Assembly (NCBI GenBank): GCA_017515595.1
Contig: JAFWFL010000105.1
Span: 1-52,492, forward strand
From: Coriobacteriales bacterium
Lineage (GTDB): Bacteria > Actinomycetota > Coriobacteriia > Coriobacteriales > UMGS124
Direction of reading: 5' to 3'
Length of the DNA: 52,492 nucleotides
The translations under genes were made by a program, and so were the position numbers. This document shows positions 3,644 through 33,832 of the stretch, piece after piece. The notes under the pieces are model-generated. The model saw only the letters and a program-made list of their open reading frames with translations, ran no database searches and had not been told where the DNA came from. Position 1 is the stretch's first letter. Every line of letters starts with the position of its first letter.

Positions 3644-3865
3644 TTAAAACCATACAGCTGTTTATGAGACACAGTATACAGCATTCTTAAGATGTAAAAA
3701 TAAAAAGCATAAAGACAGGGAAAAGACAACAGGACTCTCGTCCTCGTGACTCAAGTACCAGTAGTACCAACAGGTGGGTCGTTCTAAAACTGACTTGCGC
3801 ACAGAGATTGTCTGTTTTGTGCCCTATTAATCCAATTAATTGGGTGTCTGGGCAGAGTATGGTTT

Positions 3866-3912
3866 CTTTGCCGAGAAGAACACGCAGGTCAGAAGCGCAT
3901 GGCTTCTCGATA
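3866..3912. repeat. TTCTCGGC-type inverted-pair hairpin
   Basis: GCCGAGAAG at 3870-3878 is answered by CTTCTCGA at 3903-3910, with an inner GCGC-containing stem and the central word GGTCAGAAG. Close relatives lie at 26401-26438 (opposite orientation) and 33302-33347. It lies after the 3' end of the LOG gene and may work as its terminator. The stretch 3644-3950 otherwise has no gene I can support; GACTCTCGTCC and GTGACTCA near 3733-3753 look like a worn REP copy. Confidence 0.6.
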
Positions 3913-23085: not shown

Positions 23086-23877
23086 GGGACGGTTCTTAAT
23101 GACTCATGCACGCTGAACAATATTGCGATTGACCCCGGTCAATCTGGAGATCTGACGAACGCTCAATCCCTGTTCCTTGAGCTTAACGAGGATTTGATCT
23201 CTCTGATTCTTTTCTAAACTCTGAATCGCTTGCGGATTTGTCTCCTTAGTTATGGTTTTGATTAACTCTAATGCTTTTGTATCGGCGTGTTCGTCTGTTG
23301 ATTCAAACTCAAGACAGATGTCACAGTTTTCTGTTTCCAGAAATGCTGTTAATTCTTCGTTTGTATCAAAGTATCCTGACAGTATTCCGTCTCTTTGAAT
23401 AAAAGTATAAGGATAATTCTTCGCAAGGCATATGCCGGCCTTTTGCGGGTTGCGGTAGATATATCGCGCAACTGTCAGCAGATATCGCTCGTCATCTATT
23501 GGTTCGCTTCTGAATCGATCTTGGAATACCGGTCCAACTCTACTGTATTTTTTGTTATAGTAAGCGGCATAACTAACCAGGAGCTTTTTGAGCAATGCGG
23601 CGTAAGAACCATCCTCGACATACAACAAGAGATGGACATGATTGCTCATCATACAATATGCTGCAATCTCAAATACAATTTCTTTTTGATAACGCTCGAT
23701 GGTGGTTTTGAATCGCTTGTAATCATCTTCGTCATAAAACAAGCTTTCGCGGTTTATCCCCCGGACAATCACATGTGCCCAACCAGTCTTCCCAATATCT
23801 CGCGCAATTCTTGGCATATGATCACCCCCCGAACAAGATATCATGAATTCAAAAATGAGTCAATAAGAACCGTCCCC
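23086..23877 (-). mobile_element. RAYT element copy 2 with REP ends
   Basis: The left end GGGACGGTTCTTAATGACTC (23086) and right end, its near complement (up to 23877), enclose one RAYT gene, as in copy 1. The element is framed by the 77-bp direct repeats at 22998-23074 and 23886-23962. Confidence 0.85.
23104..23817 (-). CDS. REP-associated tyrosine transposase, copy 2
   Basis: A 237-residue RAYT, paralogue of the protein at 10604-11317. MPRIARDIGKTGWAHVIVRG opens the fold; MSNHVHLLLYVED is the HUH metal-binding motif; LLVSYAAYYNKKYSRVGPVF carries the likely nucleophilic tyrosine; LSVRQISRLTGVNRNIVQ is the C-terminal helix-turn-helix. The start at 23817 aligns with copy 1 and follows GGGGGGTGATC; a longer frame upstream runs into the REP end. 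Both copies appear intact, so either could act on the REP sequences of this genome. Confidence 0.92.
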   Translation of the reverse strand: MPRIARDIGKTGWAHVIVRGINRESLFYDEDDYKRFKTTIERYQKEIVFEIAAYCMMSNHVHLLLYVEDGSYAALLKKLLVSYAAYYNKKYSRVGPVFQDRFRSEPIDDERYLLTVARYIYRNPQKAGICLAKNYPYTFIQRDGILSGYFDTNEELTAFLETENCDICLEFESTDEHADTKALELIKTITKETNPQAIQSLEKNQRDQILVKLKEQGLSVRQISRLTGVNRNIVQRA

Positions 23878-26230: not shown

Positions 26231-26555
26231 GGCAGTTCCTTTCTGTCTGACGACATTATTTTGGGAAATCCCAAATCACTACCATTTTATAAAATGAGTC
26301 ACAGGGAACAGTTTTCTTGACCAATTCATCACCATTTCACCATATTTTAAATACAATAACGTTGAGTGAATGAGTCAAGAAGAACCATCTTTGTGACCTG
26401 TCGAGAAGAACGCGCTTCTGACCAGCGCGTACTTCTCGGTAATGAGTAATGAGTTAAGAAGAACTGTTTCCATAACGCTTGCTTAGTGTGAAAGGGAGAC
26501 GTAGTTTAACGGAACAAAGCGGAAGGGAGCGGAGTTCCTGTCCCATGACGAGTAC
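26231..26555. repeat. Intergenic region with three worn REP copies and one TTCTCGG hairpin
   Basis: ATGAGTCACAGGGAACAGTT near 26293, ATGAGTCAAGAAGAACCATC near 26367 and ATGAGTTAAGAAGAACTGTT near 26449 are degenerate versions of the RAYT end sequence. The hairpin at 26401-26438 (CGAGAAGAACGCGC with GCGCGTACTTCTCG) belongs to the family at 3866 and 33302. No promoter for either flanking gene can be called safely. Confidence 0.6.
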
Positions 26556-27899
26556 GTGATGCTTATGCGTTGCGACGGCGCCCATGACATCGAACGGGAC
26601 TGCCTTGGGGAAGACGAGCAGCAGTTGCTCGACTCATTGCTGGAGGAGGGAATAATCCGCAGGGCTCGGTTTGGTGAGTATCTCGCGCCAGATCAGGAGT
26701 ACAAAACCTACCCGGCGCAGTACAAGAGGGAGGCCCACTGGTCAATCACCGGGGCGTGCAACCTCAGGTGCCGGCATTGCTTCATGTCGGCCCCGAGCGC
26801 CAAGCATGGGGTGCCGAGCAAGGAGCAGATTGTCTCGATTGCAGACCAGCTGGCCGAGTGTGGCGTCTTCCAAGTGGGGATCACCGGCGGCGAGCCCCTG
26901 ACGAGGAAAGATTTTTTGGACATCGTCGACATGCTGAACGAGCGCGAGATTGGCATCGACTGCATCTACACCAACGGCTGGCTGGTGGATGAGGAGCTCC
27001 TGGACGGCCTGGAGAAGCGCGGGGCACACCCCCCGTTCCAGCTCAGCTTTGATGGAGTGGGATGCCACGACTTCCTGCGCGGCGTACCCGGCGCTGAGGA
27101 ACATGCCCTAAGCGCCATCCGGCTGTTGTGCAGGCGCGAGCACCAGGTCTCGGTTTCTATGTGTCTGCACCGTGGGAACCGGCATACGCTGAGGGAAACC
27201 GTGAAGTGCATGGCATCGCTCGGCGTGAGCAGCATGAAGGTCTCCGCCGCCTTCGAGCTGGGGGAATGGGCCCATCCGGAGCTCGCTGATTTGCGGCTTT
27301 CCCCAGAAGAGGAGCTTCAGCTGTATCTTGATTACATACCGCAGTACTTTGATGATGACGCTCCGCTCGCCATTACGTTGTCGGGAGCCTTTCGCTACAG
27401 TCCCGGCAGAGATGCGTGGGATAGCTTTAGTATCAAGGGGTGCCCGGCAGAGGCCGAGAAATGCACGCCATCCTGCGGCGTACTGGTTGATTGCTTCTAT
27501 ATTGGCGCCGAGGGCATGGTATGCCCTTGCATGGGGATGGCCGACACGGCATACGCGCCTAGCTTCCCCAACCTCTTTGAGACACCGCTCAAAGACATCT
27601 TGGGCGATTCAGAGTTCGACCACCTATGCCGCGCGAGCGTGTCGGACGTGCGCGACGGGAGCGGCAAGTGCAGGGATTGCGAATTTATTGACCGCTGCAA
27701 TGGCGGCTGCAGGAACTCCGCCCTCATGGCTGGGGAAGGCTACTACGGCGCTGACCCTGAGGCCTGCTGGTTCTTTGAGCACGACGGCGACAAGAGAATC
27801 GCGCAGGTGGCCAAAGAGTCGTTTGAGGCGTATTTGCGGCGCAATCAGCCCCAAGGGGGGCAGGCTGCGACCGAGGACGATTTGAAGGATTGTATATAG
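26556..27899 (+). CDS. Radical SAM/SPASM RiPP maturase
   Basis: A protein of at least 447 residues. ITGACNLRCRHCFMS carries the radical SAM CxxxCxxC motif (C68, C72, C75 from the GTG at 26556). The SPASM region has VDCFYIGAEGMVCPCMGM (from ~312), CRDCEFIDRCNGGC (CX2CX5CX3C, 372-385) and a last Cys in PEACWFF, so two auxiliary FeS clusters are expected. The N terminus (RCDGAHDIE, LLDSLLEEGII) resembles the leader-binding wing of RiPP enzymes. It should install radical-made crosslinks in the Nif11 peptide encoded 25 bp downstream. The start is doubtful: the frame is open and looks coding (FLSHDEYVMLM) back to a TAG at 26502, and GTG 26556 has no good RBS. GC-rich. Confidence 0.88.
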   Translation: MMLMRCDGAHDIERDCLGEDEQQLLDSLLEEGIIRRARFGEYLAPDQEYKTYPAQYKREAHWSITGACNLRCRHCFMSAPSAKHGVPSKEQIVSIADQLAECGVFQVGITGGEPLTRKDFLDIVDMLNEREIGIDCIYTNGWLVDEELLDGLEKRGAHPPFQLSFDGVGCHDFLRGVPGAEEHALSAIRLLCRREHQVSVSMCLHRGNRHTLRETVKCMASLGVSSMKVSAAFELGEWAHPELADLRLSPEEELQLYLDYIPQYFDDDAPLAITLSGAFRYSPGRDAWDSFSIKGCPAEAEKCTPSCGVLVDCFYIGAEGMVCPCMGMADTAYAPSFPNLFETPLKDILGDSEFDHLCRASVSDVRDGSGKCRDCEFIDRCNGGCRNSALMAGEGYYGADPEACWFFEHDGDKRIAQVAKESFEAYLRRNQPQGGQAATEDDLKDCI

Positions 27900-27924
27900 G
27901 AACAAGACAAGGAAAGGAGGAACG

Positions 27925-28362
27925 GTGAGCACTGAAAATGCAAAAGCATTCCTGAAGGAGGGATTCGAGGACCCCAAGGTGGTCGAACTCCTGAAGGAGT
28001 ATAGCGAGCCGGCTACGCAGGAGGAGACGCTTGCCGCCTATGTGAACATCGCAAAAAAGACAGGCTTTGATTTTACCGAGGAGGAGCTGACAGCCGCCAT
28101 CGCAGAAATGGACCAGGAGACAGCCTCCAGGACCGAAATGAACGTCAAGGGACTTGAGCTGCTTCCGGATGAGGGACTCGCGCAGGTGGCCGGCGGAGTA
28201 GGGCACCCCTACTGCCCGGAGGATTACTTCAGCAAGGATCGCTCCTGCAAGGACACCTACGAGAACTACGAGAACTGCTGGCACAACGACGGATGCGACT
28301 GGGTATACCACGACTACTATGATTACATGTGCAAGCGGACAAACTGGAAGGGTCATCCGTAA
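27925..28362 (+). CDS. Nif11-type leader RiPP precursor peptide with Cys/Tyr-rich core
   Basis: A 145-residue precursor. Residues 1-70 are a Nif11-like leader (NAKAFLKEGFEDPKVVELLK). Residues 76-91 (GLELLPDEGLAQVAGG) end in a double-glycine cleavage site. The 54-residue core begins VGHPYCPED. It has 5 Cys (97, 108, 118, 124, 136), 8 Tyr and 3 Trp. The repeated triads YEN-YEN-C-WHN (112-121), then YHD and YYD (128-133), look like the aromatic-x-Asn/Asp triads that radical SAM enzymes turn into cyclophanes. GTG start with AAAGGAGG 5 nt upstream. Translated right after the radical SAM gene. No dedicated ABC/C39 exporter or peptidase is visible nearby. I do not recognise the core sequence. Confidence 0.85.
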   Translation: MSTENAKAFLKEGFEDPKVVELLKEYSEPATQEETLAAYVNIAKKTGFDFTEEELTAAIAEMDQETASRTEMNVKGLELLPDEGLAQVAGGVGHPYCPEDYFSKDRSCKDTYENYENCWHNDGCDWVYHDYYDYMCKRTNWKGHP

Positions 28363-28418: not shown

Positions 28419-28461
28419 TGCCGAGAAACCCGCGTCCTTAACCGGCGCGGGTTTCTCGGCA
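28419..28461 (+). terminator. Hairpin after the precursor gene (inverted TTCTCGGC pair)
   Basis: TGCCGAGAAACCCGCG pairs perfectly with CGCGGGTTTCTCGGCA. An almost identical hairpin follows the AAA ATPase gene at 29965-30007. Confidence 0.65.
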
Positions 28462-28583: not shown

Positions 28584-29918
28584 ATGTTTAAAAGAAAAGT
28601 CTATGATGAACTGAAGACATGGAAAGATACGTATGATGGGACATACTCCGTATTGATACAAGGTGCACGACGTGTTGGTAAAAGTACAGTCGCAGAAAGT
28701 TTTGCGAAACATGAGTATAGAAGCTACATCAAAATCGATTTCGCGAATATGTCAGAAGGTGTAAAGGATATCTTCAATGATATCAATAACCTTGACTTAT
28801 TCTTTTTGCGTCTTCAAGCAGAGACTAATATTACCTTATATGAAAGGGAATCAGTTATCATCTTTGATGAGATTCAACTGTTTCCAAAAGTAAGGCAGGC
28901 AATAAAGTATCTTGTGGCAGACCATCGATATGATTATATCGAGACCGGTTCACTTATATCAATCAAAAAGAATGTTAAGGGTATCGTGCTGCCTTCAGAA
29001 GAGCACAAGATTACTATGTACCCTATGGATTATGAGGAATTTCTCTGGGCAACGGGGAACTCAAACTATGAGCTGATCAAGAAAATTGTAAAAATAGGCA
29101 AACCCATTGGCAATTCAACAAACAGAAAACTCATGAGGGATTTTAGGGTTTATATGGCTGTAGGTGGTATGCCGCAAGCTGTCGAGGCGTATGTTCAAAA
29201 GAAAAACTTTGCAGAAATTGATGCAATTAAAAGGGAGATAATCGACCTCTATAAAGATGACTTTAAAAAGATAGACTCTTCCGGGAGGATATCAAGAATA
29301 TTCAAAGCCATTCCGTCTCAGCTGGCTTTGCGAAAGAAACGGTTTGTTATTAGCAATGCGACAGGCAAGAAAAAGAGTACAAAAGATGAAGAACTCCTAT
29401 CAGATTTATTAGATTCAAAATGCGCTCTCATTTGTAACAATGTATCCAGCCCCGGTATAAGCCTTTCTCAAACAAAAAGTGATGAAGAGTTTAAACTCTA
29501 TATCACTGATACAGGCCTATTTGTAACGCTTCTCTTTAATGATGAAAGCAAGGCACACGAGGATATTTATAAAAAGATGCTCAGCGATAAGCTTTCTGAG
29601 AATCTTGGATATCTTTATGAAAACGCAGTAGCACAAATATTGGCCTCAGCAGGGAAGCAGCTCTACTATCATACGTGGAGAAAATCAGAAAGTACGCATT
29701 CTTATGAAGTAGACTTCTTACTAATTCATAATACAAAGCTTGTACCAATAGAAGTAAAATCTTCACGCATAACACCGCATCTGTCAATTGATAACTTTTC
29801 GAAGAAATACGCTCCGTATGTTGGTGATAAAATCATTGCTTCTCAACAGGATATTGGTGAACTTGAAGGTATACATCTATGGCCAATATATTGCCTGCCA
29901 GCTCTTATAGAGGATTAA
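28584..29918 (+). CDS. AAA ATPase with DUF4143 domain
   Basis: A 444-residue protein of the AAA_14/DUF4143 class. The Walker A motif is VLIQGARRVGKSTVAES (residues ~22-38), and Walker B is VIIFDEIQLFPKVRQAIKYL. A sensor-like IETGSLISIK follows, then a DUF4143-type C-terminal half whose end resembles a PD-(D/E)xK nuclease fold (YEVDFLLIHNTKLVPIEVKS, with D and ExK residues). Function is unknown; the family is common in anaerobes and often appears as a mobile cargo gene. The DNA is AT-rich compared with the RiPP block before it, so it has a different origin. RBS TGGAGG about 8 nt upstream of the ATG. Monocistronic with hairpins on both sides. Confidence 0.85.
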   Translation: MFKRKVYDELKTWKDTYDGTYSVLIQGARRVGKSTVAESFAKHEYRSYIKIDFANMSEGVKDIFNDINNLDLFFLRLQAETNITLYERESVIIFDEIQLFPKVRQAIKYLVADHRYDYIETGSLISIKKNVKGIVLPSEEHKITMYPMDYEEFLWATGNSNYELIKKIVKIGKPIGNSTNRKLMRDFRVYMAVGGMPQAVEAYVQKKNFAEIDAIKREIIDLYKDDFKKIDSSGRISRIFKAIPSQLALRKKRFVISNATGKKKSTKDEELLSDLLDSKCALICNNVSSPGISLSQTKSDEEFKLYITDTGLFVTLLFNDESKAHEDIYKKMLSDKLSENLGYLYENAVAQILASAGKQLYYHTWRKSESTHSYEVDFLLIHNTKLVPIEVKSSRITPHLSIDNFSKKYAPYVGDKIIASQQDIGELEGIHLWPIYCLPALIED

Positions 29919-33457: not shown

Positions 33458-33832
33458 TCGCTTTTGGCACAATCTTGACCGTTTGTACAGGGACGGCTGT
33501 TTCAAACAAGTTACCCTGACTCAATCTTGACCGTTTGTACAACCCGTTGGCACATTCTTGACCGTTTGCACGTGCTGATGGTGCGATCTTGAGGAATGCG
33601 CATTGTAATCAGCAAGGGTTTCTCCATGGCTTATTAAAAGGCCAGGTAATGAGGCTGCTGATTGGAGAAGCTCTTGCTGCTCATTTCTTTGAGATGTGCA
33701 AACGGTCAAGAATGTGCCAACGGGTTGTACAAACGGTCAAGAACGAGTCAACAGGTTGCGCAAACGGTCAAGAACGAGTCAACAGGTTGCACAAACGGTC
33801 AAGAATGTGTCAGCGGGTTGTACAAACGGGCC
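33458..33832. repeat. 31-bp tandem repeats in two opposing blocks around a 124-bp core
   Basis: On the right, four 31-bp units start at 33696, 33727, 33758 and 33789, plus a partial fifth; each has the core CAAACGGTCAAGAA. On the left, about three units are inverted (33458-33488, 33510-33540, 33541-33571), and the one at 33541 is almost an exact complement of the right unit. The core 33572-33695 holds no gene I recognise. Multiple internal end repeats in inverted blocks are known for IS21-type termini, so this may be an emptied insertion element; that is inference. Confidence 0.75.

Follow-up and report, generated by a model that had tools for sequence, protein, structure and literature searches.

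The window, a 52,492-nucleotide stretch of DNA from a Coriobacteriales bacterium, carries a genuine RiPP gene pair, consisting of a radical SAM/SPASM peptide maturase and a Nif11-leader precursor, and the maturase belongs to a family that is undescribed. With confidence that is evenly balanced, we infer that this pair is a two-gene satellite of a Cys-directed Nif11-RiPP family, in which thioethers would be installed at predicted core sites and the pair would depend on functions supplied in trans.

Both genes and all features of the locus lie on the forward strand. The maturase gene (26556-27899; 447 amino acids from the first GTG) and the precursor gene (27925-28362; 145 amino acids) are separated by 25 bases. 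The Shine-Dalgarno sequence AAAGGAGG (27913-27920), as read off the DNA, lies 4 nt 5′ of the precursor GTG, and the two-gene unit ends at a perfect 16-bp inverted repeat (28419-28461), located by a repeat search, that is terminator-like without a T run and folds with -39.5 kcal/mol (z -9.3). An Rfam search of the 23-31 kb region of the window returned no match. The pair is flanked by an FAD/FMN-domain oxidoreductase and an AAA/DUF4143 ATPase. No exporter adjoins it, the NHLM ABC1 and ABC2 subunits being absent next to the precursor at this locus, and thus export of the product would need trans action.

The maturase exceeds the Pfam cut-offs for both Radical_SAM (PF04055, 68.4 bits) and SPASM (PF13186, 26.4 bits). 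The CxxxCxxC motif for the radical SAM 4Fe-4S cluster (CNLRCRHC, 26757-26780) is formed by C68, C72, and C75, which are invariant in an alignment of 59 sequences, while the SPASM auxiliary-cluster region (27474-27767) provides C307, C325, C372, C375, C381, C385, and C404 in invariant or nearly invariant columns. The radical SAM/SPASM maturase that a preliminary description had paired with the precursor is borne out, with the qualification that the gene is 5′-truncated. An N-terminal RRE is a usual, although not universal, feature of radical SAM/SPASM peptide maturases; its strands are missing from the window copy, and the domain is present in the structural model of a paralogue encoded on contig C119 of the same genome.

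The truncation follows from the position of the start. No start codon lies between the preceding stop and GTG 26556, protein similarity runs on 5′ of this codon, and the proteins of relatives are longer by about 37 N-terminal residues, such that the window maturase begins at the equivalent of residue 38. The N-terminus of the relatives follows the pattern M-x-Y-x-L...LRGW, with Gly13 and Trp14 at least 90% conserved among the 59 aligned maturases. What precedes the window start is an in-frame remnant, ..NGTKRKGAEFLSHDEY (26505-26555), that resembles the RRE of relatives in the L011 alignment and in three-frame translation; it reads EFLSHDEY where the C119 paralogue has KFLNKKQY, and an in-frame TAG lies at 26502. 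A frameshift behind the missing N-terminus was rejected, as no RGW motif is found upstream in the three-frame translation. The model of the window maturase (pLDDT 92.5) lacks the N-terminal strands. The window maturase retains the conserved residue at all remaining columns with at least 90% conservation, so its catalytic part has not decayed. In relative L018, a TAA interrupts the frame at about this position, yet the LRGW segment is retained upstream. Two further codons, CTG 26538, in frame with the maturase, and ATG 26545, the start of a four-codon frame that overlaps ATG 26559, both lie 3′ of a GGAG stretch, and it may be speculated from these positions that the true start is a codon other than GTG 26556.

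The precursor leader (residues 1-91, 27925-28197) scores above the curated cut-offs of NCBIfam leader_Nif11 (TIGR03798; 39.8 versus 32.3 bits) and Pfam Nif11 (36.0 versus 23.8 bits) and ends in VAGG (88-91), a predicted C39 peptidase site. The Gly-Gly at 90-91 leaves a core of 54 amino acids with 5 Cys, 8 Tyr, and 3 Trp and with five aromatic-x-[ND] triads: YEN at 112, YEN at 115, WHN at 119, YHD at 128, and YYD at 131. Leader, cleavage site, core length, and composition are all as the preliminary description had given them, and its counts are exact on recount; the number of triads is marginal relative to shuffled versions of this core (mean 2.4, with five or more in 4.9%). The core consists of a 17-residue unit, C-x2-[TS]-[YF]-x-[DN]-x-E-[ND]-C-x3-D-x-C, followed by Y-x2-Y-x-C. 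The unit, CKDTYENYENCWHNDGC (residues 108-124, 28246-28296), holds C1, C2, C3, Asp122, and Glu116 and is one of 18 homologous units. It contains both ranthipeptide spacings around Asp122 (CWHND and NDGC). In the tail, DWVYHDYYDYMC (residues 125-136, 28297-28332), column counts show conservation of Y-x2-Y-x-C but not of the residues that complete the YHD and YYD triads.

The 3.3-Mb genome (134 contigs) encodes the paralogous pair within a complete cluster on contig C119 (locus L011), comprising maturase (L011 8954-10411), precursor (L011 10494-10961), and both NHLM exporter subunits. Identity to the window pair is 62% for the maturase and 34% for the precursor. The exporter subunits, ABC1 (a C39-peptidase ABC transporter; 937.8 bits, cut-off 853.3) and ABC2 (a second ABC protein; 734.4 bits, cut-off 709.4), are accompanied by a HlyD-like piece of only 73 amino acids. 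The C119 maturase model (pLDDT 93.0) displays strands at 2-31 and helices of an RRE-like winged domain, followed by the radical SAM and SPASM domains; among solved structures it matches SuiB and SkfB best, and EpeE epimerases are also among its fold matches. The preliminary description mentioned neither this cluster nor the RRE strands lost from the window copy nor the lack of a transporter at the window locus. A second NHLM export system, on contig C36 (L140, 7665-15811), has no maturase and also carries a sigma-like factor and STAS-like and phosphatase-like genes. Other loci of this genome include two radical SAM genes with, after them, a small precursor that ends in VAGGCVCICCAHNCARICAR (L012, 7097-10670, contig C49) and two tandem 61-amino-acid Nif11-like short peptides that end with Cys and aromatics (L142, 4808-5261, contig C43).

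A genome scan combined with an order-wide search yielded 148 non-redundant cores and 98 distinct maturase rows, of which 97 are placed in the tree. The relatives come mostly from rumen and gut MAGs. The family scores far below all NCBIfam equivalog cut-offs: the PapB model reaches a distant relative (L103) with 73 against 340 bits and is not among the matches of the C119 maturase at E ≤ 1e-18, and the StsB sactisynthase model matches weakly. The maturases of core types A, B, C, and most of E are set apart in the tree from those of the Gly-rich type D, with L017 as the exception. The window maturase falls in a clade with L046, L047, L048, and the C119 paralogue (SH-aLRT 97), of which it is the longest branch (0.40). 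Several loci combine one maturase with many precursors, such as the L046 array of ten (types A and B) and the L130 array of at least nine (type B). At L085 (7423-11304), at least 11 Gly-rich, Cys-containing type D precursors (C-x3-G-x-G) lie beside one related maturase. When further type A relatives were sought in the order of genome G397, only G397 itself was returned among 396 genomes at E ≤ 1e-120. Searches of the open-access literature on Nif11 peptides in connection with ranthipeptides, triceptides, or the rumen turned up no description of this maturase family, and no described product with the window core was found, in line with the preliminary description.

Conservation across the relatives centers on Cys and acidic residues. 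Glu9 and Asp15 are present in 18/18 type A units, which were retrieved with a pattern that fixed three Cys and the aromatic at position 5 and allowed [DN] at 15 and [EDS] at 9. The first triad (YEN-112) is aromatic-x-[DN] in 16 of these 18, the second YEN is restricted to the window and its C119 paralogue (2/18), and the third, WxN, occurs in 12/18 type A and 4/15 type C units. In the type A tail, Tyr7 (17/18), Tyr10 (14/18), and Cys12 (14/18) are kept, whereas YHD and YYD each lose the third position of the triad. All 15 type C units have C-x3-D, and in all 15 the aromatic of the first triad is replaced by Val, mostly as T-V-E. Cys is found in all cores of types A-E, but C-x3-D is not constant in type B cores, which lie beside the same maturases. 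The Cys invariance of types A and C is built into their search patterns, such that the independent part of the argument is a shuffle test over all cores. In this test, whose figures are not strict probabilities because related cores are not independent, C-x3-[DN]-x-C is found in 43 of 148 cores (6.7 ± 2.4 shuffled, maximum 13), N-x-x-C in 62 (31.8 shuffled), and aromatic-x-[ND] in 94 (81.2 shuffled). Type D cores instead carry C-x3-G-x-G (41 versus 14.4 shuffled), and aromatic-x-[ND] is missing from 22 of 40 of them.

The chemistry suggested by this pattern is of the ranthipeptide type. PapB links Cys and Asp within Cys-X3-Asp motifs (PMC9413430), and in NxxcA Cys23 is bonded to Asn20 (PMC8326336). 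On the strength of these precedents and of both spacings occurring in the window unit, Cys thioethers are favored over triceptide cyclophanes, a preference that stands at about an even chance and leaves room for one triad. In this scheme, the maturase would hold the Nif11 leader with its RRE domain, activate an acidic or amide core residue, and bond the sulfur of a nearby Cys to that residue as a thioether, most likely between Cys118 and Asp122 (C-x3-D) or between Asn121 and Cys124 (N-x-x-C). Cleavage after VAGG and export would follow, both carried out by a C39-peptidase NHLM transporter. Like the ranthipeptides freyrasin (PapB) and NxxcA, the window pair combines radical SAM-SPASM maturase logic with Cys-X3-Asp and Asn-x-x-Cys spacings in the core; the family differs in its Nif11 leader, its NHLM export, and a maturase far under the PapB model. 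The C-x3-D shared with freyrasin is an analogy, since the maturases fall outside both the PapB sequence family and the NCBIfam equivalogs. The C119 cluster resembles NHLP/Nif11 export systems in surpassing both curated NHLM cut-offs and departs from them in that it does not adjoin the window pair and has a HlyD part of only 73 amino acids. SuiB and SkfB, at 16-18% identity, form a Lys-Trp link and an alpha-thioether, respectively. A streptide-like Lys-Trp link was rejected, as neither residue is constant: Lys occupies C1+1 in 10/18 units and Trp occupies C2+1 in 12/18.

The preliminary description had favored triceptide formation at the triads, with Cys thioethers as its alternative. A three-residue cyclophane at [YF]-x-[DN], in which the beta carbon of residue 114 would be bonded to the Tyr/Phe ring of residue 112, draws on the conservation of the first triad and on precedent, in that YxdB forms a Tyr-x-Asp link and OscB joins Trp to Asn/Asp (PMC11002830), comparable to Tyr112-Glu-Asn114. 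The likeness to triceptides, made by 3-CyFE enzymes such as OscB and YxdB, lies in this one triad. The other triads vary while conservation centers on Cys, Asp, and Glu, the aromatic of the first was itself demanded by the type A pattern, it is Val throughout type C, whose maturases branch on the same side of the tree, and the maturase reaches no NCBIfam equivalog cut-off. A cyclophane is therefore unlikely overall; four of the five triads are not conserved among homologous cores while Cys is kept, so that the earlier reading is weakened for these four and may hold at YEN-112, and its alternative is the better fit given a C-x3-[DN]-x-C spacing far above chance. A sactipeptide, in which an alpha carbon is bonded to the Cys sulfur, could be expected from SkfB, which is among the top sequence and fold matches, and from the StsB match. 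All of these matches lie far under cut-offs, and the invariant Asp at Cys+4 suggests an acceptor specific for its side chain, which makes alpha-carbon linkage very improbable.

The Cys of the window core could instead form disulfides. In the broader version of this alternative, they would serve in disulfides or metal binding while the radical SAM enzyme makes another change, such as a Tyr-Cys link or an epimerization, as the conserved Y-x2-Y-x-C tail and the EpeE fold matches might indicate. Cys is, though, the sole residue common to all core types, and SPASM maturases of Cys-rich RiPP precursors have so far mostly been thioether formers, both of which render it improbable. The possibility that the window pair is a decaying copy without a product, which is compatible with any chemistry of the family, has somewhat less than an even chance. 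The lost RRE strands, the upstream in-frame stops, the missing exporter, and the longest branch of the clade all point to decay, while the otherwise complete set of conserved columns, the absence of internal stops, the strong Shine-Dalgarno sequence 5′ of the precursor, and the intact core unit speak against it.

Returning to Cys-thioether formation by a satellite pair, the absence of the RRE strands and of an adjoining exporter implies either that the pair relies on the RRE-bearing maturase and NHLM exporter of C119, with a second exporter available on C36, or that it is in early decay. The window locus is thus probably either a satellite or a relic in its early stages and is, for that reason, of less interest in itself than the family to which it belongs. 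The pair adds a maturase family of rumen and gut bacteria for which no curated model exists; its cores fall into several types, and as many as ten precursors are arrayed beside one enzyme. A few Cys, Asp, and Tyr mutants of the conserved unit would allow the crosslink to be tested directly. The truncated maturase is a natural test of RRE function in trans. Like ProcM with the Nif11-leader prochlorosins, one enzyme here faces many precursors with variable cores (10 at L046, at least 9 at L130), although the enzyme is a radical SAM protein rather than a lanthipeptide synthetase. As a bolder and rather unlikely extension, the maturases may be promiscuous on Nif11 arrays with unrelated Cys-rich cores (A, B, and C in one cluster) and thus amount to a radical SAM version of the prochlorosin system. 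A single product might then bear both a Tyr/Phe-x-Asp cyclophane and a Cys-Asp thioether, while the RRE-less window maturase would borrow recognition in trans.

The surroundings of the pair have features of their own. The AAA/DUF4143 ATPase gene (28584-29918) has a GC content of 37% versus about 60% in adjoining genes and is probably a recent acquisition. Three imperfect 30-nt direct repeats (26293-26477, spacing 76 and 79 nt) stop at the expected start of the maturase N-terminus. Palindromes lie on both sides of the pair (26403-26437 and 28419-28461), and sequences with 83-86% similarity to parts of the upstream palindrome recur at 3865-3910 of the window and on contigs C91 and C79. With an IS200-like Y1 transposase at 23107-23844, these palindromes may be REP-like. 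A mobile insert upstream of the pair was rejected, as the matches elsewhere are only short dispersed palindromes. A tandem array of 4.4 copies of a 31-nt unit is located at 33695-33829.
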